This document shows, piece by piece, positions 1 to 20,640 of a stretch of DNA of 64,000 bases. The first letter of the stretch is position 1. The number at the start of each line of letters is the position of its first letter. A program made the translations under genes and the position numbers. The notes under the pieces were generated by a model, which saw only the letters and a list, made by a program, of their open reading frames with translations, was not told the DNA's origin and did no database searches. Source of the DNA: Apostichopus japonicus (lineage: Eukaryota; Echinodermata; Holothuroidea; Aspidochirotida; Stichopodidae); contig NC_092568.1 in the NCBI RefSeq assembly GCF_037975245.1, positions 40,416,631 to 40,480,630 on the forward strand. The letters run 5' to 3'.

Positions 1-450
1 CTTAGCTAGATTTCTCGTTGACTTAGTGTGGTGTTAGGCTACCATGTGGAAGAAATTATTATTTATTCATTCGTTTATTTCATAGAAGGAAAGGCTGACA
101 AGGAATTTTACGAGATGTTTATGGATTATAGACGGGATAACTAAAAAATAGTAATCGCAAGTGGCTTTTTACTAATCGTTTATTCCAAATGCGATCAAAT
201 TGCGCGAATCGCGCAATGTCGCGGCTAATGCGAACCCTGGGCCTGCATAATAGATAGTAGTAGTAGTAACAACTGTTTAAGAGCTAAATTGGATATTTAT
301 ATGGTTTGATCCAATAGACGTGCACGAGCAAGCATAAGCAGCGGCGGCAGTGCGATGTTAGTAGTAATGCTAATTATAATTAAATAATTTATTTATTAAC
401 AAGTTAATGAAAGAAACAAAAGCAAATACAAATTATTGAGGAAGGTTTTA
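1..450. other. No gene seen; intergenic
   Basis: AT-rich sequence with short TAG and ATT runs and no frame I would call coding. It may be the interior of the decayed transposon whose terminus lies at 545-650. Confidence 0.4.
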
Positions 451-544
451 TACCTTATCTTACACCTTCGTATTTGAACATGAAAACATTGTCAGTAGAG
501 AATATAATGCATTTATTACAGCATCCAATATGTAATTTCTTGAA

Positions 545-650
545 AATCGTGATACACGAGGGTAAACAAATTTTCCCGGGTACCCGGATACCCGACGGGT
601 AACGGCCCTCGGGTACCCGGTTCCCGATTTTTGGACCCGTGTAAACACTA
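545..650 (-). mobile_element. Terminus of a hAT-like DNA transposon
   Basis: Read on the minus strand from 650, the sequence starts TAGTGTTTACACGGGTCC and runs into repeated GGGTACCCGG blocks. Ends of the form 'YAGTGTTTACACGGGTCC' followed by GGGTACCCG repeats are familiar from hAT-type elements (remembered, not searched). The interior would lie to the left. The opposite end was not found, so the copy is truncated or runs out of the window. Confidence 0.5.
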
Positions 651-719
651 ATATATATATGTATATATATTTATATAATACTAATATATATACGTGAGAT
701 ATATATTCACATTTATATA

Positions 720-1030
720 CACATATATGCATGGGTCATTTTTTTGGCCCCCTCTTAAAGCCCCAAGGTCCCCCTGTTGCTTCCTGGCTACGTGCCGGCC
801 TTATATACCCCTCCCCAGGTTTGATCCCACTTTCAGAACCCAAATCCCGCCCCTGCCCCTTAACATATTTTGCATAAACTAGGGAGGGGGATGTGTTAAG
901 GCCATATCAACCAGTGTGGGCACTTTGAAATTGTAACAGGGTACTTTTGCATGTGCGAAAAAAATGTGGGGGCATGCCCCCCCCCCCCGCCCCACCGTTC
1001 CGCCACCCTGTGTTTAGGAGTTTATGTTAA
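720..1030. mobile_element. Decayed transposon debris upstream of the large frame
   Basis: C-rich text such as 'atcccgcccctgcccc' (about 843-858) and 'catgcccccccccc' (about 973-986) followed by 'gttccgccaccctg' resembles eroded ends of dispersed invertebrate repeats. No complete element could be outlined. The stretch ends in the polypyrimidine tract and AG (1056-1057) that may be the 3' splice site of the following gene. Confidence 0.35.
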
Positions 1031-4000
1031 ATGTTCCTTAATTTCATTTTTTTACAGGTACTTCAGGAATTGCATGAATCCAAAATACGAATCGACCTTT
1101 CGATACACAGCAAGAGAAAATGTGGTTCACTAGCAATGAAAGGAGGTGCCTCGAAAGACTGCAAGAAGAAAAAGACAAAGAATCCTAAAAGGAATCATAA
1201 AAAGAAGAGGATTCTTAAGAAAGTGGATTACAACGATGTTCGATCGGCAATAAGGAAGGTCATGAAGGAGACAAACAATTCTGACCCCCCGTTCGATAGA
1301 TCGTTTTGGATGAGAGTTGCTGATTTACTCTCTTGGCCTGCATACAAATATACCAATTCAGTACACAGGCTGTTTACTATATGGTCAGAAAACCGAGGTA
1401 ATGTGCAAAGTGTTCTTTCCAGAGAAGATGACAAAGAACACGTGGGCGGTGTCTCATATTATGATGACGAGGCCCACGAAGACGAAGGTCATATCGAAAA
1501 CGATAAAAGTATGCAAAAGATGTCAAAAAGACTCAAAATTGCAAAGCGATTCTCAGACAATTGGGTTTCAGAAGAGTTATTTTGCCTATGTAAAAGAGTT
1601 TACAACAGTTCGATGCAGTATATCGAGTGCCAAAAGTGTAAGCGCTGGTATCATTACAAGTGCGTTGGCATTCCTACAGATGTTGTAAATGACGAGGAAA
1701 TTCACTATGTTTGTGGAATAGATGACTGCAATGATAACGTCAAAGAATTCTGGTGTTATGGAAAGTCAGCCAAAGTCCCACAAAATAACACATTACGTAA
1801 AACGAAATGTTACAACAGAGAAATCAATGATGAACCCACTGATGTAGATAAAGCCTACAACAAAAACACCGAGACAGATAATGATTCATCGGAGTGTTTA
1901 CCGGAACCTGATTTTATATATCACACCGTTGACGATTTTAATAATGTTTCAAACAAGTCTGGTAAAGTGGTTACAATTAATATAGAAGAGCATAATGATG
2001 GATTATTGTTTCCGCCAAATCAGGAGAAGACACACCCCAATGAAGATTCGGTGTTGTATTCGGCAACCAGGATACACCATTTGATCGATTCAGCGGCAGA
2101 AAATGACCAAGACGACAATTGTTCCTCGTGTACCTTAAGTAACAACCACTCTGCTTACTTCAAACACTGTCCGTCTGAACATGGAAACGAGTTCGATATA
2201 AACGACTCAGACAATGCGATGAACTCATCACCCAAGAATAATCACACAAGTTGCCATGACGACAAGCGGCATAGTCCGCATTCATTAGGCAATGAAGACA
2301 ATACATCTTCATCTTACAAACCTAAATGTGAAACTGGTGGCTATACCATGCCCTCATCGCCCGAATATATAGACGATGCTGTATCTAATGCCGATTATGC
2401 ATCTTCTGTGTTTTCAAATATAGAAGACTATGACCACGAGTCAGATGGAATCAATGCAGCTACTTTAAAGTCTCTTTCGTCGGTCGCTGGAGCAAAAACA
2501 GAAAACGACAGTTGTGACTTCGTTCGTTGTCTGCCGAAATGTGTGAATTTCTCGTTCCCAAGAGAAGAATGGCATAGACTGAAAGAAACACAAAACGGGA
2601 GATGTTTTGGTAGAGGGGAATGGCAAAAGTCTGTTCTGGAAATAATTAAAAAATCCAACCCATTTTGTTCATTCAAGTTCAGCAGCCACCGGGTTAGTAT
2701 GGCAACATTTCGTAAAAGACGTCAACCGGCGTTCTCGACGACAGCCACTTGCCAGTTTGATGATTGCAATTGCGCCTTAAAATTTGTGGTATTCAAGGGA
2801 CTGGATGGAAAATTAACCTATTCCGGCAAAGTCCAACACGCCAAAGATGATATCAAAGCTCGATTTATTCGACGGGCTGAAAGAAAAGACTTATACCACA
2901 AATTTTCGATGGGTTCGTTAAAACCGATGAAAATGCAGATAAGTAAGTTATCAAGCTTGCAAGGAGCTATTTACGAATCTGGAAATAGGGACGGTATTGG
3001 AGAGACACACCATGTTTTACAAAAAATCTCCAGCGAATCCCGATCACATGACCGGATGGATTCGGAGGAATTAAAGAGCCTGCTCGGCTTAATGAAGAAA
3101 CAAAAAGAAGAAATAAATAAGGACACATCTATTCGAGGATATATACAGCACATATCTGTCACGCCACTGTATATCATTTGCTTTACTGAGGGTGGACTGA
3201 GAGCATGGCATGATATTTGTAATAATAATGTAGTCTTCTGGGATGCCACTGGTAGCTGTATACAGTCTACCTTGACAAATAAAAGACTCTTATATTACGA
3301 ATTATCAGTGAGGAATATTGTATCTGGACAGACGACCCTACCTGTAACTATTTTAATAAGTGACGACCACTCATTACCTACAATTATAAATTGGTTAATG
3401 GTATTCAGACACCATGAGAAGAAAACATTTGGGCATAACAGAATGAGTGTCCCAAAACAAATTAATAGTGACAGAGCTTGGGTGTTTCTACTAGCTTCGC
3501 TGTTCGTATTTAATGGCGAAAACATCGACCGATTCTACGCTAGGGCGTGGAAAATCGTAACCGGCCAAGCTGATCAAGAAGATCTTAACAAGACCATTCC
3601 TCACGCATGCACCAGTCACCTAATGAATAACGGTAAAAGAATTGTTAAGAAGCACTTTACGAAGTATTATAGACTAGGCATGTATATGATCAGTATTCTT
3701 CTTAATAGTTCGACTTTGCCATATTTTTCATCTGCATTGAAGGACATTATCATTATATTATTATCACCGTTTGTTACAAAGAGTTTGAAATCTGCCATGA
3801 ACGCCCTCGAAATCAGAATGAAAAATCTAGGCAGAGAATCTGAACAATTTGATACGGAACACAATTTAGAAGAACGACTGGAAAATGAAGACACGTCTTT
3901 TCAAAATTCTGAAGAGGAATACATGTCGAGACGAGGGTCACCTTTTACTAGTCATTATAAGTCGATAATTAACGAAGCGGAGAAAATTATTGAATCAGAG

Positions 4001-7000
4001 GAGACCGGAAAATCCAAAGAAGGACGGGAAAGAAATAGACATAGATCGATTAGCTTCTTCAATCAAATTGTTCATACTTTGCTACCATCATCTCCCTTTT
4101 GGTCGGGACTACTGCTCGGAGATCTTACACGACACTGCACTGCAGATACAAATAAACGTCTGAAACATATACAGCCCACAACAGCATCCCGTACAATAGG
4201 AATATCAGAAGAACGTATGGGGGTTTTAAAACATAACCAATTGTCGGGTAAGCGATATAACCGCCTGGATGAATTTTTGACTGTCTACACACAAGATATA
4301 GTTGGACTCGAGAGGAAATTTCGTGACACTCTCATTCTAAACAGACGACGAACAAAGCCCAAAAATCTAATCACTATAAAGGAAGAGTGGGCAAAGAAAA
4401 CCCCCAGAAATATCAAGTCACCATTTCAAAGGCCAAGTGAGCAAGGTTTATTCATGGAGACAACCGTAACTCAAAACTTCGTAGCAACCGACGAGACACC
4501 AAACATACGACAAAAGACAAACACTGTAGATCGTCAAAAATGGGAAGCAACACCTGTTAATCAGGAACCACTAAAAGCCGTTACCAAGAAATGTGTCATT
4601 CCGTCAAAAAATCCTCTGCAATCTATTTCAGGGAGGGTACATACACAAACCAAACCTCCAAACAAACGAAAGTCTACATCAAGGCAATATAAATCTAGAG
4701 GTGTTCCTATACGAGATAAGAGAAACATTTTGAAGGTTAATTTCACTAAAATGGAGAACGCCAACAATAACTGCTGGTTCAATTCAACGATGCAATGCTT
4801 GGCAAGGTGTGTCCCATTTCAAGATTTCGTAACTACATTGCCCACCAACTTTGAAGACATTCTCTCACTTTTGCAGAGAAGGATTATCAATATATCGAAA
4901 CACATCATCAATAAAACACCAAATCTTACATCTCAGAAACTTGCTGGTGTTCTCAACCTCTGTAGCCGGTTTGTTGGTTTAAGCTTTAATACACAGTGTG
5001 ACCCACTAGAATTTATTACAAGAGCAATTGTACCAATGTTCCGAGCATGTGGACATAATCCAATACAGATAACATTAAGAAACAAATTTACATGTCAGAC
5101 CTGCGACACGCCCATTGTCAGCAGTGATTGTTTGTCAAACGTTTATCTTAATATGGATATATGGGATAAAAATATCACATCTATATCATCACGTCTGAAA
5201 CGACACTTTGAAGATGAGGTCATTGAAGGAATGATCTGTCATAGTGATCATTGCAACGGCTCCGAGAGATTATTTACCAATTGTAAGAGTGTTATCTCTT
5301 TACCGAGATTGTTGGTGGTGGTCCTCACACGGTACGACCAATACGGACAGAATGTGAAAATTTCCCATCCAGTTCCAATCGACGAAGAGCTTAATCTGAC
5401 ATCTGAAAGTACCAAATCTGCGCATTATAGATTACAATCGGTAATTCAGCACGCCGGACATTCAACTGTAGCTGGCCATTTTACAGCAGTGTGCAGATGT
5501 GACGATAACTCTTTTATTGTCGTCGACGACACCAGAGGGTATTCATGGAGTAAAGACTTTACAGAAAAAAATGCGTACATTTTGTTTTACTCTAGAGAAA
5601 CCGAGGAGCAGATCATAGCACCAAATAATCCTTCTGATGATTCCAAACCAGATCACAATGAAGAAAGTTTAACTCAAAGTTCTTCATTTCCAGAAACAAA
5701 ACTTGAATCAAGCCCTCGAAGCGAACCAACTCATCAGCATCTAACATTTCACAAACCACCGATTTCTTCAGAGGAATCCAAACGTGAACAAGCTTACAAA
5801 TCAATGAAGTCTGAAATACTTGATAAATTTGGAGAACGTGCGTTATGTACTATAGCTAGAACGAGTAATTGTCATTCCTGTAAAGTTCATGTTGGTTGTA
5901 TTCAAAAGGTTAAATGTGTATTTACCTTCACAAGTGTAAAGAAATGCTCAAATGAAAATAGGTCCTTAATTGATATGACAAATGAAGTTGATCATTTGTG
6001 TAACGAGAATAGGTTGGTAAGTTGCTCTTGCACAAAATCAAATTGTGCAAGTAAAGTTATGTTAACGCCAGAAATAATCCTAGTAGAAAACCAATCAGTC
6101 AGGCAGGAGTGTTTTCCGAAGTTATTGGCCCTTGTGGAGAGTTCACCGGTAACCCATCAGTTTAGCCGAACTAGATTTTATAAGGCTGTATATCTAATAT
6201 ACTTAGGTGATTGCTATGATACTGAAAGGGTTAACATTTCTAAAAGTAAAGAAATAATTACCAACTCACCTTCGGTTATTGTGTTTAAGAAGTATGGAGA
6301 TACACCTCTGACATATGATGTTGATTGTGTACATGTTCAAAGGGTAAAATATTCTCCACTTTTATATTTGGTGTCACAGTGTACTAAGCCTAATTTTACT
6401 TTATCGAATTGTTGGCAATCTAATCTGACTCTTGGAACAGATGACTGGATTATTGAGGGTGTTACAGTTACTGCATATGATAGACAGAGACTCGTGAACG
6501 GTGAATGGTTAACCGATTCAATCATTGAAGCATATATTCGAGGTGTTTTACCGTTAAAATCAAGAAATATTGCATTTTGTTCTAGTCATGTTGGAATCAT
6601 AATGCGACAGCATTTGGACATCACGCAAGAGGCACTGGTCAGAGAGGCATCGTTAACAGGCCTCAAGAAATGTAATTGGTTCATCGGAGTTGACATGGTA
6701 TTTATTCCAAACAACTGTCAGGGAATTCATTGGAATATGTTTATTTTGCATCCTAATAAAAAACAAGTTGACGTTCTAGATTCCCTGAACAGCTTTGAAA
6801 GACATATGGAAAAGAGGGTAAAAGATTTACTTTTGGTAGCGTCACTGCACTTCTTTTCAGCGTTCAGAAAAGAAATGGATTTTAATGATTGGCAAATTTC
6901 ATTCGTATCTTGCCCACAACAATCCGACGGGCAAAATTGCGGAGTGTTTCTCTTATATTTTGCTACATGCGTAGCTAATGGAGAGCCAATACAGGCACTT

Positions 7001-7084
7001 GATGAAGAATCTGTAAATAAATATCGGTGTTTCATTCTGCAGGAACTGTCTGCAAGACGTCTGGGCAAATATAAAGGAATATAA
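1031..7084 (+). CDS. PHD finger / MULE-like transposase / USP / Ulp1 multidomain protein
   Basis: An intronless 2017-codon frame, typical of a transposon-encoded protein. Order seen: (1) Lys/Arg-rich tail, residues 42-66, a likely nuclear signal; (2) PHD-type zinc finger, about 185-237, with C185-x-C187, a CxxC pair, WYHYKC and further Cys; (3) acidic Ser/Asn-rich linker to about 490; (4) Cys-containing basic module, about 500-620, perhaps FLYWCH/GCM-like; (5) RNase H-like DDE core in the MULE style, D738 in FWDATGS, D814 in NSDRAW, then H858-x-C860-xx-H863, with a candidate acidic pair E1060/E1061; (6) USP domain with Cys box C1248 in NNNCWFNSTMQCL, two finger Cys pairs (about 1355-1409) and His box H1483 followed by VVDD; (7) second Cys-rich region, about 1600-1720; (8) Ulp1/C48 protease with H1900, D1917, Q1964, C1970. 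All protease catalytic residues are present. The first codons probably belong to an intron: TTTTTTTACAG ends at 1057 in phase 0. The first good internal Met is residue 36 (1136). No terminal inverted repeats were recognised. A domesticated gene is the alternative. Confidence 0.85.
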   Translation: MFLNFIFLQVLQELHESKIRIDLSIHSKRKCGSLAMKGGASKDCKKKKTKNPKRNHKKKRILKKVDYNDVRSAIRKVMKETNNSDPPFDRSFWMRVADLLSWPAYKYTNSVHRLFTIWSENRGNVQSVLSREDDKEHVGGVSYYDDEAHEDEGHIENDKSMQKMSKRLKIAKRFSDNWVSEELFCLCKRVYNSSMQYIECQKCKRWYHYKCVGIPTDVVNDEEIHYVCGIDDCNDNVKEFWCYGKSAKVPQNNTLRKTKCYNREINDEPTDVDKAYNKNTETDNDSSECLPEPDFIYHTVDDFNNVSNKSGKVVTINIEEHNDGLLFPPNQEKTHPNEDSVLYSATRIHHLIDSAAENDQDDNCSSCTLSNNHSAYFKHCPSEHGNEFDINDSDNAMNSSPKNNHTSCHDDKRHSPHSLGNEDNTSSSYKPKCETGGYTMPSSPEYIDDAVSNADYASSVFSNIEDYDHESDGINAATLKSLSSVAGAKTENDSCDFVRCLPKCVNFSFPREEWHRLKETQNGRCFGRGEWQKSVLEIIKKSNPFCSFKFSSHRVSMATFRKRRQPAFSTTATCQFDDCNCALKFVVFKGLDGKLTYSGKVQHAKDDIKARFIRRAERKDLYHKFSMGSLKPMKMQISKLSSLQGAIYESGNRDGIGETHHVLQKISSESRSHDRMDSEELKSLLGLMKKQKEEINKDTSIRGYIQHISVTPLYIICFTEGGLRAWHDICNNNVVFWDATGSCIQSTLTNKRLLYYELSVRNIVSGQTTLPVTILISDDHSLPTIINWLMVFRHHEKKTFGHNRMSVPKQINSDRAWVFLLASLFVFNGENIDRFYARAWKIVTGQADQEDLNKTIPHACTSHLMNNGKRIVKKHFTKYYRLGMYMISILLNSSTLPYFSSALKDIIIILLSPFVTKSLKSAMNALEIRMKNLGRESEQFDTEHNLEERLENEDTSFQNSEEEYMSRRGSPFTSHYKSIINEAEKIIESEETGKSKEGRERNRHRSISFFNQIVHTLLPSSPFWSGLLLGDLTRHCTADTNKRLKHIQPTTASRTIGISEERMGVLKHNQLSGKRYNRLDEFLTVYTQDIVGLERKFRDTLILNRRRTKPKNLITIKEEWAKKTPRNIKSPFQRPSEQGLFMETTVTQNFVATDETPNIRQKTNTVDRQKWEATPVNQEPLKAVTKKCVIPSKNPLQSISGRVHTQTKPPNKRKSTSRQYKSRGVPIRDKRNILKVNFTKMENANNNCWFNSTMQCLARCVPFQDFVTTLPTNFEDILSLLQRRIINISKHIINKTPNLTSQKLAGVLNLCSRFVGLSFNTQCDPLEFITRAIVPMFRACGHNPIQITLRNKFTCQTCDTPIVSSDCLSNVYLNMDIWDKNITSISSRLKRHFEDEVIEGMICHSDHCNGSERLFTNCKSVISLPRLLVVVLTRYDQYGQNVKISHPVPIDEELNLTSESTKSAHYRLQSVIQHAGHSTVAGHFTAVCRCDDNSFIVVDDTRGYSWSKDFTEKNAYILFYSRETEEQIIAPNNPSDDSKPDHNEESLTQSSSFPETKLESSPRSEPTHQHLTFHKPPISSEESKREQAYKSMKSEILDKFGERALCTIARTSNCHSCKVHVGCIQKVKCVFTFTSVKKCSNENRSLIDMTNEVDHLCNENRLVSCSCTKSNCASKVMLTPEIILVENQSVRQECFPKLLALVESSPVTHQFSRTRFYKAVYLIYLGDCYDTERVNISKSKEIITNSPSVIVFKKYGDTPLTYDVDCVHVQRVKYSPLLYLVSQCTKPNFTLSNCWQSNLTLGTDDWIIEGVTVTAYDRQRLVNGEWLTDSIIEAYIRGVLPLKSRNIAFCSSHVGIIMRQHLDITQEALVREASLTGLKKCNWFIGVDMVFIPNNCQGIHWNMFILHPNKKQVDVLDSLNSFERHMEKRVKDLLLVASLHFFSAFRKEMDFNDWQISFVSCPQQSDGQNCGVFLLYFATCVANGEPIQALDEESVNKYRCFILQELSARRLGKYKGI
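1047..1057 (+). promoter_or_regulatory. Probable 3' splice acceptor at the head of the large frame
   Basis: A pyrimidine tract ending TTTTTTTACAG sits 17 nt after the first ATG of the frame, so that ATG is probably intronic. Cleavage after 1057 keeps the frame open in phase 0. The true start is then in an upstream exon or at Met36 (1136). A second AG (TTCAG, ending 1065) is a weaker alternative. Confidence 0.5.
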
Positions 7085-8470
7085 TTTATTTTTACTATGA
7101 AGACATGGTGATATACGGAAGTAACGAAACAATAATAATTACCACTGGATCACAAGAATTTTATAATCAATATCAACTGAAGTATTGCAGTTTCTATTCT
7201 ATTAGAGTAACAACAAAATCACTTATTTACAACGTGATTACAAACCATGAGGATTGTTAATAATCTACTAATCTATTAATAATCTTTAAAGTGTTATTTT
7301 CTGAAATTTGACAGGTCGTTGACAGTGATTACAAATCAGAGAGGTTACTGTGACTTCATATGCCTAAATAATTTCACGAAATGACATAGGCATGTATTCA
7401 GAAATGTATTTAATCTTCTAACGGTCTCATCGGTAGAAACATATGATGACGGCTTACTTTTTATATATTTAGAAGTTGATTTATCTTTAACGGTATAGCT
7501 CATAGGGGTAAAGGGTTGTAGCAATCATTATTAACCCCACCCAGGAGCGTGTTCATTATTTGTGCAGAGGCGCCTGAAACCGGCGCGTAGGGAGCCAGGG
7601 GCGGGGAACTGAAGTTGTATTGCAATGTTTATACGTTTAGGGTCTAAGGGAAGGAGGTTACTCCTCCGCTTTGAGAATTTATTTATATATCTGACTGCCA
7701 CAAAGGGCAAAATATGGCGCCCAGAATTATGTTAGAAAAAGTTTCGTAGGAAGATATTGTGACCGGGTGGCTGGACTCTTTTTAGAAATTTCACGTTTTG
7801 TGACCATCGTCCGGGGTAGGGTATTAGAGGCAGCAGTGGTGCCATGATTTCCCCGACTGAGGTGGCTAAGGTCCCTGATATATGGGGGGGGGGCTAAGGT
7901 ACCCCACAATTCGGGCTTTTCTGCTCCTCCTCCCCCTTCATATTGTTGGTGATTTAGAAATATTGTAAACGAAAACGTTATACAGCATACCATACTTCTA
8001 TATTTAACCGCCAAACCAGGGTAGTGTTATTGACACATTTTTAAAGCAATCGCTTCATTATCGAAACATTTTGTAATTTATCACAATTTTTCTTACAAAA
8101 GACCAGGTTGATTAATAAGTTCATATGTCTTATTATATCTCGTTTTATTTATTTCTTTGTGATTCTGTCGGAAGAAGCTGTAATGGTTAAATCAATTTAA
8201 AGAACCCTAATAAAAGAAGCAATATAAAACAGAAAATAAGGTTATATTATTTTCAATAGGAGACTTCATAGGAGACTTCCTTTCCCATTGTATATAAATG
8301 AAGATAAAAGAAAGAAACAAATAAAAACTAAAGAGAGGTATATTCATGAAAGTATACTCTACGTTTTTTTACATGGGCGGTCAGGCGCACGTTCATTATT
8401 CTTGATGTTATAATCTTTATATATTTCTTTTTCCCATAGACCTAAAATATAACTATTGTTGGCGTGTAAC
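7085..8470. other. No gene seen downstream of the large frame
   Basis: AT-rich, with no convincing frame. AATAAA occurs at about 8209, too far from the stop at 7084 to be confident. Two short similar phrases, 'gcgtgttcattatt' (about 7547) and 'gcacgttcattatt' (about 8386), are the only internal echoes noticed. Terminal repeats of the preceding element may lie here but could not be paired with anything upstream. Confidence 0.4.
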
Positions 8471-8479
8471 GCTCACACC

Positions 8480-9780
8480 CTTTTAGATTTCATAGTCTTG
8501 CCGACATGTAGGGAAATTTGTCTCTCCAGATAAACCACCACCCCTTCAACAACTTTATACACACGCACACCCCTTCCCCCGAGGCAAAGAGGCCTCTGAA
8601 AATTACGTATAATTACCTCGCAGGCCACAGCTTCGGGGTTCTGCCTGCCAATTTTATACGTACCGTTACTATTAAAATTTCTTTGCTTAAAAAATTTCAG
8701 AATTTGTGTTTTAATTACACCGCTGACCCCTCTTTCTGGGCCTCTGATGTCCATTAAGACACATTACCCCCGGGATAGCGAAAGAGGGTACAAAAGTTGA
8801 CGGCCGCTACTTGAAAACCGCTCATTGTATGCCGTTGCAACGATTATTTGTTTGCCAAACAGGCTTCTCAAAATCACATTTAAATTAATTACTCTGAGTC
8901 TAATTTCTGGGCCCTCTGGCTCCCGCTACAACATCGTGCCTCCGGGTTAACGGAAGAGGGGTATAGACTAAATAGAGGGTGTCCCCTTCTACTCCAAAAA
9001 CCCTCATAGGATACCTTGACAATGAAGTATTGTTTGCTAAAAGAGCCTCTAAATATCGAATTTAGTCGACCCGCTGGGCCCACTTATCTGGGCCCTCTGA
9101 CGCCTACTAAGATAATTTGCTCTCGGGGTAGCGGAAGAAGTGCAGTGGCTGAGGACCCTTCTACTTCGCATGTTATACCTACCTACCTATGTTATACGTA
9201 CCTTTACTGTTTAGATTTGTTTGCCAAAAAAAGAATATTAAATTCGCATATAATAACCCCACTTGGACCTTGGGCCCTCTTACGCCCGTTGCGACAATTT
9301 TAGCGGAAGAGGGTAGTAAACAGTAATCCTCCTTAAAACTTGAAAGCACCATGTTATCGCGTTACAATGTTTATGGCTTTTTCAAAAAAATTGTCTTTAA
9401 ATAGCATTTATAAACCCCGATATCCCACATGCCGGGTCTGCTGCGCCCGCCACAACAATACGCCACGGGCAGCTGAAAATGTTCATTAGCCTAGAGAGTG
9501 ACCCCTCTCTATTCGAAGACACCATGCGTTCCCATGTTATTGCGTTATAATATTGCTTTGCAAAAAGTATATCGAAATCGCATTTAATTACTCAGCTGGG
9601 CTCACTCTCTGGGATACCAGAAGAGGGGAAGTTCAAAGTGTCCCCTCTATCCGAATCCTCCCCTTTCCCCCATGTTATCACGTTACAATATTTCTATGTT
9701 TGTCAAAAAGGGGTCTCAAAATTGCATTCGATAAACCTGCTGAACTGTGGCCTCTACAATTTCAATTCTGGCACTTATAA
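8480..9780 (+). repeat. Decayed tandem repeat, period about 175 bp, 7-8 copies
   Basis: The block TCTGGGCCCTCTGACGCC and variants recurs near 8735, 8906, 9087, 9269, 9433, 9606 and 9748 (spacing about 142-183). Each copy is preceded by a TTTGCCAAAAA/TCTCAAAATTGCATTT-like phrase and followed by a CGGGGTAGCGGAAGAGGGG-like phrase. Copies are strongly diverged, so the array is old. It has no coding content. Confidence 0.75.
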
Positions 9781-9784
9781 ACTA

Positions 9785-11090
9785 CCGTAGTCTTTTATGA
9801 TTGCATATTGTGCGCTGCTACTGCTTATTGTCCGTAGCTATTGTCCGCTACTATTGGTTGCCACTATTGTCCGCCAGCTTCAACTCGATCTGAGTTACCT
9901 CTCGGCGCATATGTGGTGAGTTAATGTCCTTGTGGATGTTTCACCTTCTCACAGAAGAATATATTTCTTCCATGCATCCTGACAGATAATCGTAATTCTT
10001 GTCTACTCTAACCTAACTTAAGCCTATCCTTACCACTACATAAGTTCCTACAGTATACTTAGCAACTTAGCCTAACTCAGTGTTAGTGTTAGCCGTAGCC
10101 TGTTACAGAATATAAGTTAACATTAGGCTAGCCATACCTTGTCATTGTGAATTAATTCTCAGAAACCGATTCTCATTTTGTATTTTTGTGTCACTATCAG
10201 GAAAGTCACACTGATCAGCGTTCATTTGACAAGACTGAGGGCTGAACCACAGGGCTGCCACATCCATCAAATTACTGGGCCAAATTTATTCAGAGGCCAT
10301 CGTTTCGAGTCGACAATAGTGTTCGTGTTGGATTAGACTTGCCGCGGTTGGACACAGTGTGAGCATATAACGGCACTATTTCTGTTACTGCGCACAGCGA
10401 TGCACAAGGCTTCCTTTGTACGTATAACTGCTGGGTATGGGTGATAACATTACTACGTAACGCGTTCCAGGAAAAAATGGTAGAGGCCGCTATTTCACAA
10501 AACATGTTGGGGTATCGGTAAGAAACGTGTCTACTACCGAGCAATTGAAGTTTCAAACATTTTGTTAGATCACTGTTTTTGTAGGGTTTCTACGTTATTG
10601 TGTTGTATTTATTCACGTATTGTTATGCTCACTTACTATTGTACACTGCGAGTGGGGGCTTAGATTATGTGTGAGAGGGCCAAACCCTTTGTTTATGACA
10701 CAATATAGGTTACACATACCTGTAACGAATTCAAATTAAAGATGCATGGAGAGGGGGTGATGGACAAACTTTGACCAAAGACCGTTGTGGGAGGGGTCTA
10801 ATGGGAAGGGAGACGATCACTCCCTTTTGAAAATTTTGTCTAGGTAAGGGTTCTTAGATGAAACTTAATGCTATGAGTCCCATCACGTTTGCCAGTTTAT
10901 ATACGACTATGCGTGTCATGTGTAAATATGTTTTTATAATTGTTTTTGTTGTTCAGCGCCATTGAGTGTTTTTACAGTAATGTGCGCTTTACCAAGTGTT
11001 ACCACCTTAACCTTAATTTAACCTTATGTTTTGCCGGATGCCCGTTTCCGGTTCCCTCAGTGTCCCTCTTCTCCACCTGCCGGAGTGCCG
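9785..11090. other. No gene seen; intergenic
   Basis: Contains a small cluster of 'attgtccgcta'-like words (about 9825-9880) but no convincing frame or element. Confidence 0.4.
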
Positions 11091-11244
11091 GTCACACTGA
11101 TCAGTGGCGGAGCTATAGGGTATTGGTCAGGGAGGGCGAGAATGTTCTGTAGGGACGCTTTCGACACTATCTAAGCGGAGCGCCACCATAGGTTGGCGCA
11201 GAGCGTACAGAATTTTTTTGAGTAATGAATGATACTCCCTAGAT

Positions 11245-11803
11245 GGGACAAACTATAACGAATGACAGCGAATGACCGAATGACAATTGACTCCACACAG
11301 GGTTAACTATCATTTGCAAATGACAGCGAATGACAACGAAGGACAGTGTTGAGTGGAGATAAAATGATTAACGGAGTGGAGTTACTTGGTTTTCTGCGCA
11401 AAAATGATTTGAGGAAAATCGCATGTTACGTGGTTGCAGGGTTTTGCTGTAATTTACGGATAGAAACCACAGGGAAAGTTTTTGTGTGAGAATGCGCTTG
11501 AGTGCTGTGCTTTTTACCTCTGTAGATTTATATAGAAAGATAACTGAAGCCGTTTCAAGATTATTGTATTGTTAGTTTCTAACAATTAATATCGGAAAAA
11601 TGACGATAAATTTACTTTTTAAACTTAGACTTACAATTTGGCTTAATATAAGGTACGTTTTTATCTTGTCTGTACTTTACTAGATCTAGATACCCACGAA
11701 GTCTGAACTGTCATTCGTTTTAGTCAACGCAATTTTTTAGTGTGTACAACATATTGTCATTCTTTATGTGTTACGCAATTGTCATTCGTTTTAGTAACAC
11801 CCC
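11245..11803 (+). mobile_element. MITE with GGG...AAAACGAATGACA termini
   Basis: Starts GGGACAAACTATAACGAATG and ends with the inverse form, CATTCGTTTTAGTAACACCC. The subterminal regions are built from repeated GAATGACA words in both orientations. About 560 bp and non-coding. Related copies lie at 19321-20640, mostly in the other orientation. Confidence 0.65.
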
Positions 11804-11989
11804 CCGAGATCGCCGGAAATGACCTTTCCAGGCCTTGCTAATTTGCAGATAAACGAAGAATAAATAGTAGTCTGGGAGCCTGTCCCATATGATTTCACCG
11901 CATTTAGCCCAGAAGGTTTGACCCCTAAAAGTTACTAAGACCATCTAGGCCATTCACAAAAAAAAATGTCAGCTCAACCCCAGTGGTCG

Positions 11990-13079
11990 GGTTCGGACCC
12001 CAGACCCCCTGAAAAAGACCCCCCCCCCGGACGGGTTAATTTCACCCCATCTAGCCCATGGACCAAACTTTGTCAGAAGGAAGTAGTATGGCTGTACATT
12101 AAAAAAAGGCAAAACTGACAAAATTCCTGGTCGGGAAGAGGTTGTCAGACCCCCACTAAGTCACCCGCAGTCGGGTTGATTTCACCCCATCTAGCCCATG
12201 GACCAAACTTTGGCAAAAGGAAGTAGCATGGCAGTATGTTACAAAAATGGCAAAAACTGACAAAATTGTTGGTCGGGAAGGTGTTGTCAGACCCCCACAA
12301 AGTTTACCCTGACCCACCCCCCCCCCCAAAAAAAAGGCGGGTTGATTTTACCCCATCTAGCCCATGGACCAAACTTTGTCAGAAGGAAGTAGTATGGCTG
12401 TACATTACAAGAAAGGCAAAACTGACAAAATTCCTGGTCGGGAAGGGGTTGTCAGACCCCAACTAAGTCACCCCCAGTCGGGTTGATTTCACCCATCTAG
12501 CCCATGGACCAAACATTGGCAAAAGGAAGTAGCATGGCAGTATGTTACAAAAATGGAAAAAACTGACAAAATTGTTGGTCGGGAAGGTGTTGTCAGACCC
12601 CCACAAAGTTTACCCTGACCCACCCCCCCCCCAAAAAAAAAGCGGGTTGATTTTACCCCATCTAGCCCATGGACCAAACTTTGTAAGAAGGAAGTAGTAT
12701 GGCTGTACATTACAAGAAAGGCAAAACTGACAAAATTCCTGGTCGGGAAGGGGTTGTCAGACCCCCCACTATATTCACCCCCAGTCGGGTTGATTTCACC
12801 CCATCTAGCCCATGGACCAAACTTTTGCAAAACAAAACTTTGTCAAAAGGTAGTAGTATGGATGTACATTACAAAAAGTGTAAAACTGACAAAATTCCTG
12901 TTCGGGACCCCCCACTAAGTCACCCCCCAGTCGGGTTGATTTCACCCCATCTAGCCCATGGACCAAACTTTGTCAAAAGGAAGTAGTATAGATGTACATT
13001 ACAAAAAGTGTAAAACTGGCAAAATTCCCAGTCAGGAAGGTGTTGTCAGACCCCCACAAATATCACCCTTACCCAACTA
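11990..13079 (+). repeat. Tandem array A, left arm: alternating ~140 and ~167 bp units
   Basis: The core CCCCATCTAGCCCATGGACC recurs at about 12045, 12184, 12351, 12491, 12656, 12799 and 12945. The spacing alternates between about 140 and 167 bp over the first five copies, giving a dimeric higher-order unit of about 306 bp. The longer unit carries a C-run followed by an A-run. Frames here are by-products of the repeat. Confidence 0.8.
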
Positions 13080-13369
13080 GACCGGCAGCCCAGTGCACTT
13101 TGATCAAACGAACGAGGTACCAATATCTGAGTATTGGAACATTTGTGGAAAAACCCAGTATATCCAAAAGTGGATGTCTGCCGTGGTCGCTCTGCTGCAT
13201 GTGGCCCCTGGGGCCGGTTAAAGGGGGCCCAAAAATGCATCTGATCAAACGAATGAGGTACCACTTGAAACCAATGTCAACTTAATGCATGAATGCCACA
13301 TAGTACTGAATGGCCCATGCCAGACAAATTTTCTGCTGCAAAGGGCCCGCCAGACGCCCAAGAAGGTCC

Positions 13370-14240
13370 CCTAAAAATGCATCTGATCAAACGAACGAGG
13401 TACCACTTGAAACCAATGTCAACTTAATGCATGAATGCCACAAAGTACTGAATGGCCCATGCCAGACAAATTTTCTGCTGCTAAGGGCCCGCCAGACGCC
13501 CCCAAATATGGCCCAAATGCCCATTACCGTAGCATTGACCCAGATTAAATATGCAAGGTACCACTCAAAACCGGTTTGGAATGTTCGGGTTGATCTTACA
13601 GACTATGGAAATCCTCATGCCAGACAAATTTTCTGCTACAAAGGCCCGCCAGACGCCCCAAAAGGGCCCATAAAAATGCATCTGATCAAACGAACGAGGT
13701 ACCACTTGAAACCAATGTCAAATTAATGCATGAATGCCACAAAGTACTGAATGGCCCATGCCAGACAAATTTTCTACTGCTAAGGGCCCGCCAGACGCCC
13801 CCAAATATGGCCCAAATGCCCATTAGCGTAGCATTGACCCAGATTAAATATGCAAGGTACCACTCAAAACCGGTTTGGAATGTTCGGGTTGATCTTACAG
13901 ACTATGGAAATCATCATGCCAGACAAATTTTCTGCTACAAAGGGCCCGCCAGACGCCCAAGAAGGGCCCATAAAAAAATGCATCTCATCAAACGAACGAG
14001 GTACCACTTGAAACCAATGTCAACTTAATGCGTGAATGCCACAAAGTACTGAATGGCCCATGCCAGACAAATTTTCTGCTGCTAAGGACCCGCCAGACGC
14101 TCCCAAATATGGCCCAAATGCCCGTTAGCGTAGCATTGACCCAGATTGCAAGGTACCACTCAAAATCGGTTTGGAATGTTCGGGTTGATCTTACAGACTA
14201 TGGAAATCATCATGCCAGACAAATTTTCTGCTACAAACGG
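13370..14240 (+). repeat. 300-bp tandem units in the left arm of element B
   Basis: The block ATGCATCTGATCAAACGAAC recurs near 13375, 13676 and 13978 (about 300 bp). Each unit is two related halves of about 150 bp, both containing CATGCCAGACAAATTTTCTG. Because 300 is a multiple of three, frames stay open across units, which explains the ORF-like appearance of 13310-14291. Confidence 0.8.
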
Positions 14241-15420
14241 GCTAACAGACACACTAAAAAAGGCCCCCAAATGGGCCATGATCAATCATAGTTGGTACCA
14301 CACAAAACCAATATTAAATGCAAAGGTACTTTCCACAGAGTAAAGAACTGCCAATGCAAGACAAATTTTCTTCTGCATAGGTCCCACCAGATAGAAAGTA
14401 TAGGTGGCCCAATGCGGCCCTATATGGGCCTAATGAATTGTATATCGGTGCAGACTATATGAGCCTTGTGACATGACATTTGTAGCATTCCACAGAGTAA
14501 AGAAATGCCAATACAATACAAATTTTCTTCTGCAAAGTGCCCACCACATGTAAAAAAAAATATGCAGTTTAAATAGTTAAGATACCACAAGAAACCAATC
14601 TATAACAATCAAGAACATCCTGAATTATTCAAATTCCTTCCCGCTACATAGGCCAATGGAATAATGAGATTAGTATACTAGTAGGTGTATCAATTACTGA
14701 ACATTTCATTGAGCAAAACAAAAATGACGCGAACTCAGTCTTTGAGGGAGATCCTGACAGTTATAATGCATTCTCAAATCCATTCTTGTTCCTTTTATCT
14801 ATTCTTTTTCCTTTTATCCAGTCAGTACTTTGCATCGTGAGCAGTGTTCAACTTGACAGTTACTTTGTTTCGCTGGAAACACTGGAGCAGATTAAAATCA
14901 GTTTATGTATTGTAAATAAGAAACCCAAAATCATTTTGTATCTTAAAACACTGTGTTTACGTTAGCATTGTAAATCTACAAAGTTTAAAATCTTGAGAAA
15001 GAACGCTTAAGTGTCATCTTAAGACATACATGTAGTCGAACAAAAGAGATTGTTTTGTTTCTTAAGCTCAGACAAAGAAACAATTATCAAACAGTGGTGA
15101 AAATGCTTTATAACGTGTACTTAACGATAAAGGTTTGGGTTGAAACTGTCCAATATGGTTTTTAAAAGATACATAATTGAAGCATAGAAATGTATATGTA
15201 CCTTTTATGCTAGGTACACTCTTTAAAGGACTTAAAATGCTAAGATTGAACAAACAAATACTGATATCACCACGTATGACTCCATTCCCTGATACAAAAT
15301 ATAAAATGAGTAATTGGCGTATATTACTCCATCTTGGTCTTTTAGAACTTCCATCATTACACTAATTCAATTCGAATAGCTTGTAACAAGTCCAACAAAT
15401 AGATGTGGCATCCATTTTTC
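14240..15420. other. Spacer of element B, no gene seen
   Basis: To about 14560 there are two further decayed units ('gacaaattttcttctgca'). Beyond that the sequence is AT-rich and unique, with no convincing frame. Confidence 0.5.
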
Positions 15421-16041
15421 AGTTCGTTTGATCAAATGCATTTTTATGGGCCATTTTGGGGCGTCTGGCGGGCCCTTTGTAGCAGAAAATTTGTCTGGCA
15501 TGATGATTTCCATAGTCTGTAAGATCAACCCGAACATTCCAAACCGGTTTTGAGTGGTACCTTGCATATTTAATCTGGGTCAATGCTACGCTAATGGGCA
15601 TTTGGGGTCATATTTGGGGGCGTCTGGCGGGCCCTTAGCAGCAGAAAATTTGTCTGGCATGGGCCATTCAGTACTTTGTGGCATTCATGCATTAAGTTGA
15701 CATTGGTTTCAAGTGGTACCTCGTTCGTTTGATGAGATGCATTTTTTTATGGGCCCTTCTTGGGCGTCTGGCGGGCCCTTTGCAGCAGAAAATTTGTCTG
15801 GCATGGGCCATTCAGTACTATGTGGCATTCATGCATTAAGTTGACATTGGTTTCAAGTGGTACCTCGTTCGTTTGATCAGATGCATTTTTGGGCCCCCTT
15901 TAACCGGCCCCAGGGGCCACATGCAGCAGAGCGACCACGGCAGACATCCACTTTTGGATATACTGGGTTTTTCCACAAATGTTCCAATACTCAGATATTG
16001 GTACCTCGTTCGTTTGATCAAAGTGCACTGGGCTGCCGGTC
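15420..16041 (-). repeat. Right inverted arm of element B
   Basis: Inverse of 13080-14240 but with fewer 300-bp units. It includes the single-copy head (15885-16041 matching about 13080-13235) with very few differences, so the element is fairly young. Confidence 0.8.
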
Positions 16042-16200
16042 TAAACCCCCAAAAGGCGCGTTGATTTCACCCCTTCTAGCCCATAGACCAAATTTTGTCA
16101 AAAGAAGGTAGTATGTCTGTACATTAAAAAAGGAATATCTGACAAAATTGCTGTTCAGAAGGGGTTGTCAGACCCCTACAAAGAGCCCATACCCAGTGTC
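16042..16200 (+). repeat. Displaced continuation of array A
   Basis: One direct-orientation A unit (GTTGATTTCACCCC then TAGCCCATAGACCAAA) immediately right of element B. It completes the unit interrupted at 13079. Confidence 0.75.
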
Positions 16201-18256
16201 TTTTACCCATGAACTGAGATGATAAACACATAATTATTACAAAAATAAATAATTAGTGATCATATTTATGAGAGGAGATATTCTATGTAATTCAAAAGAG
16301 CCTTCAACGTCCATTATGGCTTGCCTTTCTTAATTGCTTCATCTTTTTTTGGTGACAAGCGACCTAAAGTTGCTAGGCAAGGAAGTGACGGAAACACAAT
16401 GATGCTCCTGTTTAAAACATTTTGATTTTATTTAACTGTATAGCACCTAAGTAAAAATTATGGGTAGGCAGATTTAAGCAGTTAAATGGAAGGGCATATC
16501 CCAAAAATATTGTGAGTAATACCTAAAGGCAGCAGATATTTTTTGTTTTCCTGCCCTTTCATTTTTCTATAATACTCATGACTCCTTCTAAAATTTCATG
16601 TTAAATTTTGATAGTAATTTTTGTTTGTTTTGGCAGAAGATTGTTTGTTTTATTCATGTAAAACAAAAGACCTGCTATAGTTAATGACCTGCAACCCAGT
16701 TATCTGCTTGGTCCCATAATATATATATGGTGTTACAGCAGAGGTGGAACAAAAAACATATTGGGGACCCTTTGGCATATTAGATATCGTTAATAGGAAC
16801 ATCCTTCTAATTTCTGAAGCCTTTTCAAATAGTTATAGATATGCCAGGTATATAATTGGTAGATCAAAGAAGTTATTTGGGGGGGGGGGGGGGCTTGACC
16901 ACTCAATTATATTATTGAAGCTGCCCCTCCCCTGCTTCAGCTGTTTTTGTGTTACGAATGCATACTTTCCTTGTGCAATTGTTTTCATTTCATTTTGGGC
17001 GTTTAAATATATATATGTATCCTATGGGTTAGATTTCTATAGTAGCTCCCATTGTACTATTGCAACCAATAATTAAGTACTCATATTGTTTCTTTTTAAA
17101 CCTACAATTGGTAACATGCCAGTATAAAGATTATTTGGTTGAAATCAAGGAATATTTACAAAATCTGGGAGTTTAATTTGATTTACATCAGGTGAAAAGG
17201 CAGTATTTCCCACCCCCCCCCCCAAAGAGAGCATATTTCAACTATTTGATCTGTATTTAGTGTCGGATTTAGGGGATGTTGTGGCGGGTGTACCCTTCCC
17301 CTTTCAGACCACCCAAAAAAAGTTGTGTTCCAGACAAGAATGCTGGAAAATAAGTGCATTATTCAAATCGTGCAGATACTACTTGTCTGGAAATCAGATA
17401 TTTGGATTTCCCTCTATTTTTATATCTAATAAATTTCACATTTCGAACCCAAATTTGGCAAATCAATCGTGATCGGGGCTTCATAACGGCGGTTTATCTG
17501 TCGAAAATCCTGTAACTGGTAAGCTTTACCTTAGCAATTTGTTTTCAAATCACACTTTACTTAGAATATTTGCAGAAGAGGTGGATTGATAAGATGGACA
17601 CAACAGAATTATGCAAGTGACGTGATGGTGAACAATGACAAAGACGTACTGTATCATATATCAACAAGACAATATAGACTTTTAAGAATAACCATTTGCA
17701 TTTTAAAACCTTTAAAGCGCATTGTGCCCAATAACAGAAGGGCCTTAAAACTGAGTGAGGGCACATTCTCCATGTTTGTTCAAATGCAATGTTTGGTGGG
17801 GTTCTAGCTGTAACTGTTTCCTCTTTTGTGGATGGTATTTCCTAAATTAAATTACCCGTTCTTGTTATTATAGTTTTCCATAACTGTTTGTCATATTGAT
17901 GACACAAGTGTGGTAATTGGCAGTCCAAACATTCATGTTGAACAAGCAAACTTATTTTACCAACATGAGTGGGGCTGGTCCTGTTGAAAGCATGTTGTTA
18001 TTTTCTACATTTGTCATGCAAAGGAATCTGCTTTACAAGTGTAAAAACTTTTCATATATAACATTTGTTCCTGGTTCTACATGTATCCATTTCTTGCTTT
18101 TACGGTATATATATGTTACACAAATACATAAGTGGCCCATGTGACCAGAATGGGCACATCTTTGCTTTCAGACCATTTGGTAAGTTTTTCCATGTTTTAT
18201 AATACTTTTGAATACTTTTTTTTTAAACAAAATTCTGGTCTATGATTAGATTGCAT
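16200..18256. other. Unique interior of element A, no gene seen
   Basis: About 2 kb of AT-rich sequence between the inverted arms of A, with a long G-run at about 16869-16884. The small frames here (for example 16744-17076) show no family resemblance and are broken by low-complexity tracts. Confidence 0.45.
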
Positions 18257-19026
18257 GAATTGAATTGGCTGGGTGGGGGCACCTTGTGGGGGGGTCTGAC
18301 AACCCCTTCCCGACCAGCATTTTTGTAAGATTTTCCTTTATTTTAATGTACAGACATACTACTTCCTTTCGGCAAAGTTAAGTCTGTGGGCTAGATAGGG
18401 TGAAATTTACCCGCCTTTTGGGGTTGGGTGAGGGTGACATTTGTAGGGGTCTGACAACACCTTCCCGACTGGGAATTTTGCCAGTTTTACACTTTTTGTA
18501 ATGTACATCCATACTACGTCCTTTTGACAAAGTTTGGTCCATGGGCTATAGATGGGGTGAAATCAACCCGACTGGGGAGGACTTAGTGGGGGGGGGGTCT
18601 GACAACCCCTTCCCGACCAGAAATTTTGTCAGTTTTACACTTTTTGTTATGTACATCCATACTACTACCTTTTGACAAAGTTTGATTATGCCAAAGTTTG
18701 GTCCATGGGCTAGATGGGGTGAAATCAACCCGCTTGGGGTGACTTAGTGGGGGGTCTGACAACCTCTTCCCGACCAGTAATTTTTTTCAGTTTTGCCTTT
18801 TTTTTTAATGTACAGCCATACTACTTCCTTCTGACAAAGTTTGGTCCATGGGCTAGATGTGGTGAAATTAAGCCGTCCGGGGGGTCTTTTTTAGGGGGTC
18901 TGGGGTCCGAACCCAACCACTGGGGTTGAGCTGACATTTTTTTTTTTGTGAATGACCTAGATGGTCTAAGGAACTTACCGTCAAACCTTCTGGGCTAAAT
19001 GGGGTGAAATCATACGGGACAGGCTC
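18256..19026 (-). repeat. Right inverted arm of element A
   Basis: Reverse-orientation copies of the A unit. The phrase GGTCCATGGGCTAGATGGGG recurs at about 18537, 18700 and 18843, with a more diverged copy at about 18385. The arm ends in the inverse of the left terminus. It has about four units, fewer than the left arm. Confidence 0.8.
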
Positions 19027-19320
19027 TTGGCCTAAAGGTGCCATCGCCATTTTGTCAGAAAATTACACCAAAAAATATGACAAATGTCAATAGGTAGATG
19101 CATATGAGAGCGCAATAAAAAAGGCAATAGTCCCGAATAAGTAAAAAGTGTTAAAAAGCTGAAAAGGGCGCCAGCAGTCCATTTGAGTCCGTCAGGGGGT
19201 GGGGGGGGGAGATCCGCCCCTGACTGTATGGACGCTCCGCCACTGACACTGGTGCTAGAACATGTAAGTGGCAATCGCCTTCAAATACCGAATGTATCAT
19301 GTATGTGGACACTGAAAAAC

Positions 19321-20640
19321 GGGTGTTACTATAAAACGAATCACAATTGCGTTACACATAACGAATGACAATATGTTGTACACACTAAAAATTGCGTTGA
19401 CTAAAACGAATGACAGTAATGACAGCACGGACATTTGCTTCAACCGGATATCACAGTTCAGACTTCGTGGGTATCTAGATCTAGTAAAGTACGGAAAAGA
19501 TAAAAACGCACCTTATAGTATAAGCGAAATTGTAAGTCTGATTTTAAAAAGTAAATTTAACGTCATTTTCCGATATTAATTGTTAGAAACTACCAACACT
19601 AGTTATCTTCAGTTATCTTACTACATAAATCTACAGAGGTAAAAAGCACAGCACTCAAGGGGTGTTACTAAAACTAATGACAATTGCATGCGTTACACGC
19701 GAATGACAATATGTTGTACACACTAAAAAAATGCGGTAACTAAAACGAATGACAGTAATTACAGCACAGACATTTGCTTCAACCGGATATCACTGTTCAA
19801 ACTTCGTGGGTATCTAGATCTAGTATAGTACGGACAAGATAAAACGCACCTTATAGCAAGCGAAATTGTAAGTCTGATTTTAAAAAGTAAATTTAACGTC
19901 ATTTTACCGATATTAATTGTTAGAAACTAACAATACTATATAATCTTGAAAAGGCTTCAGTTATCTTTCTATATAAATCTACAGAGGTAAAACGCACAGC
20001 ACTCAAGCGCAATCTCACACAAAAACTTTCCCTGTGGTTTCTATCCGTAAATTACAGCAAAACCCTGCAACCACGTAACATGCGATTTTCCTCAAATTAT
20101 TTTTGCGCAGAAAACCAATAACCGCATTTACTCCACTCCGTTATTCATTCTATCTCTTCTCGCCACCGTCCTTCGTTGTCATTTGCTGTCATTCGCAAAT
20201 GATAATTTACCCTGTACAAAGTCAATTGTCATTCGGTCATTCGCTGTCATTCGTTTTAGTTTGTTAAATAAGTTTGATTAGCTTCTCATTTGGAGGGACT
20301 GTTAACGGCAGCTTTAACCTTAACCTTAACCTTGTCCCCACTAAAGCGCATTCTCACACAAAAACTTTGCCTGTGGTTTTCTATCCGTAAATTACAGCAA
20401 ACCCTACAACCACGCATGCAACATGCGATTTTCCTCAAATCATTTTTGCGCAGAAAACCAATAACTCCACTCCGTTAATCATTCTATCTCGAGTAATGAT
20501 TTTCTTAAAACATGGTTTTTCAGGGGACAAACTAAAACGAATGACAGCGAATGACCGAATGACAATTGACTCCACTCAACACTGTCCTTCGTTGTCATTC
20601 GTTGTCATTCGCTGTCATTCGCAAGTGATAATTAACCCTG
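19321..20640 (-). mobile_element. Cluster of AACGAATGACA-type MITE copies
   Basis: A truncated copy starts GGGTGTTACTATAAAACGAA (19321). A near-complete copy starts GGGTGTTACTAAAACTAATG (about 19661) and runs to about 20262. A third partial copy runs from about 20345 into a direct-orientation terminus, GGGACAAACTAAAACGAATG (about 20523). The internal text is the inverse of 11245-11803. The cluster lies outside the hAT-like element that holds the left copy, so these are separate insertions or local duplications. Confidence 0.7.

Follow-up and report, generated by a model that had tools for sequence, protein, structure and literature searches.

A recently mobile, probably Mutator-like transposon of Apostichopus japonicus encodes a PHD finger, a transposase core and two kinds of modifier protease domain in one protein

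Transposons with Ulp1 or OTU protease domains have been on record since 2010 or earlier (PMC2836005). Among them are Ulp1-bearing Mutator-like elements (MULEs) of hydra, lancelet, Arabidopsis, maize, rice and melon (cited in PMC2836005), which move by cut-and-paste and whose transposase carries the Ulp1 protease. An alignment of Ulp1 and PHD domains from Ginger1 and Mutator transposases is described in a figure legend of the same source (PMC2836005). Here we describe a transposon in a stretch of 64,000 nucleotides of Apostichopus japonicus (NC_092568.1, positions 40,416,631 to 40,480,630, forward strand; the window), in which one large protein joins a PHD finger and a transposase core to both a USP (C19) deubiquitinase-type domain and an Ulp1/SENP-type C48 protease domain. 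Compared by description and not by sequence, the Ulp1-bearing MULEs differ in that the pages of PMC2836005 treating them mention no USP. This and the following comparisons draw on excerpts of the cited papers.

Helitrons, Helinoto among them, are rolling-circle elements and not DDE transposases. Helinoto, an icefish Helitron2, resembles the window element in having three deubiquitinase-like domains, according to a title cited in PMC7599744. CryptonF and CryptonS likewise bear an Ulp1-type C48 peptidase, but they use a tyrosine recombinase instead of a DDE enzyme and USP is unmentioned in the excerpt on them (PMC3212892). Ginger1 transposases carry Ulp1 (one family also PHD) or OTU domains, and modifier proteases therefore recur in transposons; unlike the present protein, the Ginger1 transposase is of the Gypsy-integrase type, and the table in the source has Ulp1 or OTU per family, never both (PMC2836005). 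OTU domains are in print for both Ginger1 and Helitrons (PMC2836005, PMC3212892). In the Trichomonas protein XP_001314237.1 transposase_11 is fused to Peptidase C19, but this is another transposase (pfam01609), and C48 or PHD domains go unstated in the passage concerned (PMC2836005). Bao and colleagues suggested that such proteases help transposition or repair (PMC2836005); no test of the function of transposon proteases was found in the papers looked into. A combination of PHD, transposase, USP and C48 was not found in the literature searched, a scope that left out most subscription journals and the Repbase reports. An earlier preliminary description of this DNA, made from the letters alone, had likewise known of no family with this full order. 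On these searches, both protease kinds and a chromatin reader in one transposase protein appear to be new; transposon Ulp1 and one transposase-C19 fusion were already in print.

Our DNA search covered the window's own genome (G000; 671.6 Mb in 35 contigs), in which the window is C8:40416631-40480630. Beyond the window copy it returned a full-length one on C12 and a third, split by an insert, on C20, with the parts of the open reading frame (ORF) 100% identical after rounding. Protein identity to the window copy was 99.5% for C12 and 100, 99.36 and 100% for the three pieces of C20. Ends and target duplications were read in these three copies. Comparison of the three regions gave common ends at C8:40405940-40426520 (20,581 bp, of which a nested insert makes up ~1.2 kb), C12:23354440-23375956 (21,517 bp) and C20:28368557-28387839 (19,283 bp). 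The transposon extends well past the ORF on both sides, reaching 10,691 bp to the left of window base 1 and ending on the right at 9890. The flanks of the three copies are unrelated to each other. An 8-bp target duplication is perfect in two of the three, at C8 (TGAGTTAC) and C20 (GATCGCGA); at C20 alone a ninth base matches too, so that 9 bp is possible there, and at C12 (GTTTATT) seven of eight bases match.

From the ATG at 1136, the C8 and C12 reading frames, both open, differ at 18 of 5,949 aligned positions. In 5,630 columns of their left non-coding parts there are 26 mismatches and 14 gaps, and in 2,806 columns of their 3' parts 21 and 2; for C8 against C20 the corresponding values are 23 and 18 in 5,628 and 11 and 2 in 2,808. 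The element family has been mobile in the recent past. The preliminary description had proposed a transposable element encoding USP-type and Ulp1-type proteases and had pointed to copy number, conserved termini and target duplications as informative; near-identical copies on three contigs, with common ends and 8-bp duplications, bear the proposal out. That description had also considered a domesticated host gene at a fixed location, as the long intact frame and a likely upstream intron might suggest. Near-identical copies at three sites with target duplications, together with multicopy relatives that have the same domains, refute this in the present genome, and we regard it as having next to no chance of being right.

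Two of the copies are themselves interrupted. The nested insert of ~1.2 kb in the C8 copy (window about -563 to 650; C8:40416067-40417280) has inverted ends TTAGTGTTTGCACGGGT/TTAGTGTTTACACGGGT, and the copies on C12 and C20 lack it at that site; its right part has a 96% relative at C12:23376700-23377534, ~0.7 kb past the C12 element copy. The C20 frame is interrupted by an insert of ~880 bp (C20:28376632-28377513; L016) whose inverted ends, CATATCAATTCC, are 12 bp long; no target duplication was seen by eye. That copy also shifts frame near residue 1816.

The left end of the element starts ACTCAGTAGAAGCTAGCGGACAATAAGCGCGGACAATAGTAGCGGACAATAAC and the right end, reversed, GATCGAGTTGAAGCTGGCGGACAATAG, the outermost bases differing between the two. 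In the C12 copy the ends align in inverted orientation over ~65 bp, imperfectly, with a local score of 63, where the highest of 300 shuffles reached 29. Allowing at most one mismatch, each of the three copies has three units of GCGGACAATA at its left end, spaced by 13 bp, and four at its right end, with spacings of 26, 13 and 20, besides a single forward match elsewhere. A satellite array with a 171-bp unit (TRF) lies inward of the left end; taken from BLAST ranges, it measures ~2.8 kb in C20, ~3.9 kb in C8 and ~5.9 kb in C12. Inverted repeats inside the window, such as 373-402/7254-7283, were considered as terminal repeats and rejected, being A+T-rich while the true left end lies outside the window. 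Both subterminal repeat types, inverted, also occur in a piece of ~2 kb at C16:45410599-45412583, which is probably a small internally deleted derivative.

The ORF at 1031-7084 on the + strand (2,017 amino acids) is the sole ORF of at least 150 amino acids in window 1-12000, and in this the single ~6 kb frame is as it was first described. The frame stood, but position 1031 did not hold either as protein start or as limit of the feature, the element being far larger. A polypyrimidine tract spans the start of the ORF and terminates, splice-acceptor-like, in ...tttttttacag at 1057, so that 1031-1057 looks like the end of an intron. A relative on C16 (30.26 Mb) has an acceptor-like ...ttaacag upstream too, and its similarity to the window protein starts near residue 9. 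Because of the acceptor-like tract at 1047-1057 and the same situation in the C16 relative, the protein probably does not start at 1031, an upstream coding exon or the ATG at 1136 being favoured. The features of the locus are collected in Table 1.

Table 1. Features of the transposon within the window (window coordinates; residues numbered in the 2,017-residue frame)
Feature	Position	Strand	Details
Transposon, in-window part	1..9890	+	Homology ends among C8/C12/C20 copies and 8-bp target duplications
Large coding exon, PHD-transposase-USP-C48 protein (predicted)	1058..7084	+	ORF; acceptor-like tract 1047-1057 with C16 parallel
PHD finger	1583..1714	+	Residues 185-228; Pfam and phmmer
Putative WRKY-like zinc domain, probably DNA-binding	2531..2869	+	About residues 501-613; C574, C579, H603
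DDE transposase core	3242..4210	+	D738, D814, CxxH863, W1024, E1060; helical insertion between second D and E
USP (C19) deubiquitinase-type domain	4751..5590	+	Residues 1241-1520; C1248, H1483, D1499/D1500; Cys pair 1355/1358
Ulp1/SENP-type C48 protease domain	6503..7039	+	Residues 1825-2003; H1900, D1917, Q1964, C1970
Right subterminal repeats	8600..9750	-	Inverted diverged relatives of the left-end 171-bp satellite, ~71%, mostly 70-73% identity
Right terminal inverted repeat region	9806..9885	-	Four TATTGTCCGC units, at most one mismatch
Right 8-bp target-site duplication TGAGTTAC	9891..9898	+	Left copy before G000:C8:40405940

Pfam found both protease domains: UCH/USP with E 1e-23 in the full protein and 1.1e-25 when searched alone, and Peptidase_C48 with E 1.9e-16 and 1.3e-18, respectively. 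With the full protein, phmmer against PDB chains returned SENP1 (E 3e-12) and USP21 (E 3.6e-7). The closest solved relatives of the USP domain are USP21, USP12 and USP2, and those of the C48 domain SENP1 (E 1.1e-13) and Ulp1 (E 3.4e-9). The catalytic residues named in the preliminary description (C1248 and H1483 of the USP domain; H1900, D1917, Q1964 and C1970 of C48) were correctly numbered. Pfam also recovered the PHD finger seen there, barely above the cut-off (E 3.5e-5; 24.2 bits against 24.0), and its closest solved match was BPTF (E 3.2e-7; phmmer, PDB chains). Three profile matches above cut-off and conservation in relatives rule out a chance ORF or spurious domains. The PHD finger of BPTF binds histone H3 trimethylated at lysine 4 (H3K4me3), and Tyr193, Tyr198 and Trp206 of the window finger are placed, by eye, much as in BPTF. 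Because of this likeness and the retained aromatic residues, it is reasonable to guess that the finger docks on active chromatin.

In the linker between USP and C48, a Cys-rich part (window 5840-6260, residues ~1604-1743) resembles by eye a decayed USP finger, with a C..C pattern followed by LTPEIILVEN. Neither this part nor a second USP-like half suspected by eye in linker 1523-1800 had a Pfam or PDB sequence match.

The transposase core comprises D738, D814, C860-x-x-H863, W1024 and E1060. Across the five aligned families D738, D814, H863, W1024 and E1060 are invariant, and the C860 position is C in three and G in two. In a weak structure model the core has its secondary structure in RNase H order; Foldseek ranked ISCth4 first and Hermes among the best, with integrases and WRKY domains also matched. 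We take ISCth4 to be an IS256-family transposase. IS256 is a family related to MULEs, and both MULE and hAT transposases are described as having a CH motif and a W between the second D and the E (PMC5225508). Weighing against a Mutator-like assignment, the transposase region had no Pfam match of any kind, even when residues 497-1130 and a shorter piece were searched alone up to E = 10. Of the MULE-like D...D...CxxH core first described, the residues stood. Because no Pfam model matched, the assignment rests on the conserved residues and the weak structure model; on these the transposase is likely Mutator-like. Two further searches gave what we took as chance: a profile of alignment A1 against PDB chains had three matches, all to RNA 2'-phosphotransferase (E 2.3), and the best PHROGs match, of unknown function, had E 0.096.

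Many MULEs, though not all, have an N-terminal zinc domain of the WRKY-GCM1/FLYWCH type. FLYWCH and WRKY domains are akin, and the putative WRKY-like zinc domain, the composite ends with tandem repeats and the satellite arrays of the window element suit Mutator/Foldback elements and Rehavkus. Tm1, a Mutator/Foldback element of root-knot nematodes, shares composite ends, asymmetric outer bases, 13-15-bp tandem repeats and 8-10-bp duplications and has a FLYWCH zinc finger, but its transposase is of 496 amino acids and the available text mentions no protease domain (PMC3169594). Rehavkus, a sister or member of the MULEs, has a PHD finger in its transposase protein and a mini-satellite beside the terminal repeat, with 9-bp duplications compared with 8 here (PMC6446971). 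Its satellite lies before the 3' repeat, whereas the 171-bp satellite of the window element is chiefly at the left end; by description, not sequence, the two also differ in that the sections on Rehavkus mention neither USP nor C48 (PMC6446971). Thus the PHD finger and the satellite beside the terminal repeat agree with Rehavkus and the duplication length does not. As for MULEs in general, the 8-bp duplications fall within their 8-11 bp (perfectly in two of three copies), and the imperfect terminal inverted repeats of ~65 bp and the D-D-E core with CxxH and W agree as well.

The same 8 bp would equally suit KDZ elements, and the transposon could instead come from a different superfamily with such duplications (KDZ/Zisupton, hAT) or from one not yet named. 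Zisupton and the usual hAT elements duplicate 8 bp (PMC12730594), a MULE profile match is absent and Hermes, a hAT transposase, is among the best Foldseek matches. However, Pfam scans of the protein and of the transposase piece matched neither KDZ (PF18758) nor hAT models, although the fold would allow hAT; the first-ranked ISCth4, through IS256, and the Mutator/Foldback- and Rehavkus-like features listed above also speak against it. We judge such a placement to be rather unlikely.

Relatives were then sought by protein search, which scored 24 of 260 candidates, so that relative and copy counts are lower bounds. Read were one copy each of the families L035, L036 and L037 and places on C16, C17 and C20; two further lineages, at C21:15.08 Mb and C17:17.1 Mb, were left out of this reading, and the decayed or internally deleted places C16:29.60 Mb and C17:27.31 Mb were left out of the selection counts. 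The C16 relative (C16:30257064-30262855) is 44-54% identical over residues 9-241 and 497-2015 of the window protein; it has an in-frame stop in the USP domain and at least one frame change. L035 (C14:1015744; also C22, C3, C8 and C4) is 39% identical in the transposase, L036 (C20:11254132; also C2, C7 and C1) gave a 31% match, its C7 copy having a TGA in the matched part, and L037 (C16:44510539; also C3) a 30% match. By DNA search L035 has five full-length places at 99-100% and L036 five at 97-100%, plus fragments; C16:5.40 Mb is another L036 copy (97% by DNA). All kin found lie within the window's own genome. No relatives were found among viral contigs, phages, plasmids or bacterial and archaeal genomes, in searches that in part used one protein and six peptide patterns and could there detect close kin only. 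In nine places the match covers nothing but the final 565-647 bases of the L035 query, at 91-98% (for example C8:37035403, C9:36525378 and C20:1538432), which suggests that these end fragments may be non-autonomous derivatives.

The order of modules varies among the families. By Pfam, L035 has PHD-transposase-USP-C48, as in the window, and L036 PHD-USP-transposase-C48; L037 has USP-transposase-C48, and by eye the C-terminal half of a PHD-like finger opens the fetched piece. The position of the transposase in the three was set by alignment and not by Pfam. Between arrangements the USP domains scored 37.4 bits (window and L036), 35.0 (window and L037), 47.8 (L035 and L036), 48.9 (L035 and L037) and 36.6 (C16 relative and L036), and the C16 relative and L037 gave no match. 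Against human USPs the window domain scored 40.8 bits (USP21) and that of L037 39.6, in a different program from that used between families. The window C48 domain had no significant blastp match to C48 of L036 or L037, and NCBIfam gave a weak C48 match in L035 alone. This divergence of USP and C48 between arrangements would fit repeated capture or fast change.

Active-site motifs of both USP and C48 are present in all five families, and the C16 relative retains C1248, H1483 and D1499 of USP and H1900, D1917, Q1964 and C1970 of C48. When the window protein is compared with this relative, amino-acid identity is 72.1% in PHD, 60.0% in the transposase, 58.6% in USP and 52.6% in C48, compared with 25.5% and 26.8% in the linkers. 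Matching at codon positions 1/2/3 is 67/78/40% for the transposase, 66/79/42% for USP and 66/77/45% for C48; overall, third positions match at 38-59% by segment and second positions at 77-85% in the domains. The codon positions carry signs of purifying selection. USP and C48 appear about as constrained as the transposase, because amino-acid identities and codon-position matching are similar. These data bear on the possibility that the proteases are captured host passengers with no part in transposition. MULEs are known to acquire host gene fragments (PMC6446971), USP sits at two positions among the families, and window and L036 USP (37.4 bits) are about as alike as window and human USP21 (40.8 bits, from a different program). 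Against this, all five families keep the catalytic motifs, the codon positions point to a constraint like that on the transposase, and the copies read of L035, L036 and L037 all retain both proteases; we consider this explanation very unlikely.

The poorly conserved linkers and great length of the protein invite another reading of the same transposon, in which C48, perhaps with USP, would process the 2,000-residue protein into working parts in the fashion of viral proteases. The C48 domains of two related families weakly match the adenovirus endoprotease profile (E 0.0022 and 0.0056, under the Pfam cut-off). The best solved relatives of the window C48, however, are the SUMO proteases SENP1 and Ulp1, and self-processing seems to us an unlikely role.

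D-D-E transposases of this kind bind subterminal repeats, cut, and insert with a staggered cut. Taking the observed mobility, ends, domain set and conserved catalytic residues together, we think it probable that the element is a recently mobile, autonomous-type cut-and-paste Mutator-like transposon whose PHD, USP and C48 domains aid the transposase and counter silencing or repair control. One large protein would act as transposase, its WRKY-like zinc domain binding the GCGGACAATA repeats at both ends and its RNase H-fold D-D-E core cutting and joining DNA to leave 8-bp target duplications. The PHD finger would probably anchor the complex to histone H3 tails at open chromatin. USP and the Ulp1-type protease would probably take ubiquitin and SUMO off either the transposase or the chromatin or repair proteins present at donor or target sites. 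The outcome may be a stabilized transposase, and silencing or repair control that acts through SUMO or ubiquitin may be relieved. Both modifiers are needed for Piwi- and KRAB-type silencing and for the repair of double-strand breaks, and the element could tamper with host silencing or repair machinery during movement.

More tentatively, the families might form an animal transposon lineage in which a histone reader, a transposase, a deubiquitinase and a deSUMOylase travel in one protein as a fixed set serving counter-defence, the deubiquitinase having been gained at least twice; this is conceivable, though we doubt it more than we believe it. At least two gains are suggested because USP sits after or before the transposase and likeness between the two kinds (35-49 bits where found, with no match for one pair) is only roughly on the level of that between the window and L037 USPs and human USPs (40.8 and 39.6 bits). 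If true, erasing both ubiquitin and SUMO would be a recurrent need of transposition in these animals, and a transposon-encoded counter-defence against silencing. With their intact frames and conserved active sites, these recent multicopy families offer natural assayable constructs, and point mutants within one open frame could separate ubiquitin from SUMO removal in cutting, integration and escape from silencing.

Several other repeats and a transposase gene lie in the window. Beside the element, 11248-20264 is a foldback structure with arms 11248-11803/19659-20264 (84%), 11876-12605/18287-19026 (81%) and 13078-13695/15422-16043 (98%), partly of tandem units; AACGAATGACAGCGAATGACCGAATGACAATTGAC is found close to each outer end, and the whole resembles a second foldback-type element. 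A piggyBac-type transposase frame at 23507-25063 (519 amino acids stop to stop) matches DDE_Tnp_1_7 with E 7.1e-79. Two minisatellites follow, at 33403-34199 (33-bp unit, ~25 copies) and 56088-59865 (76-bp unit, ~49 copies, 3.8 kb).

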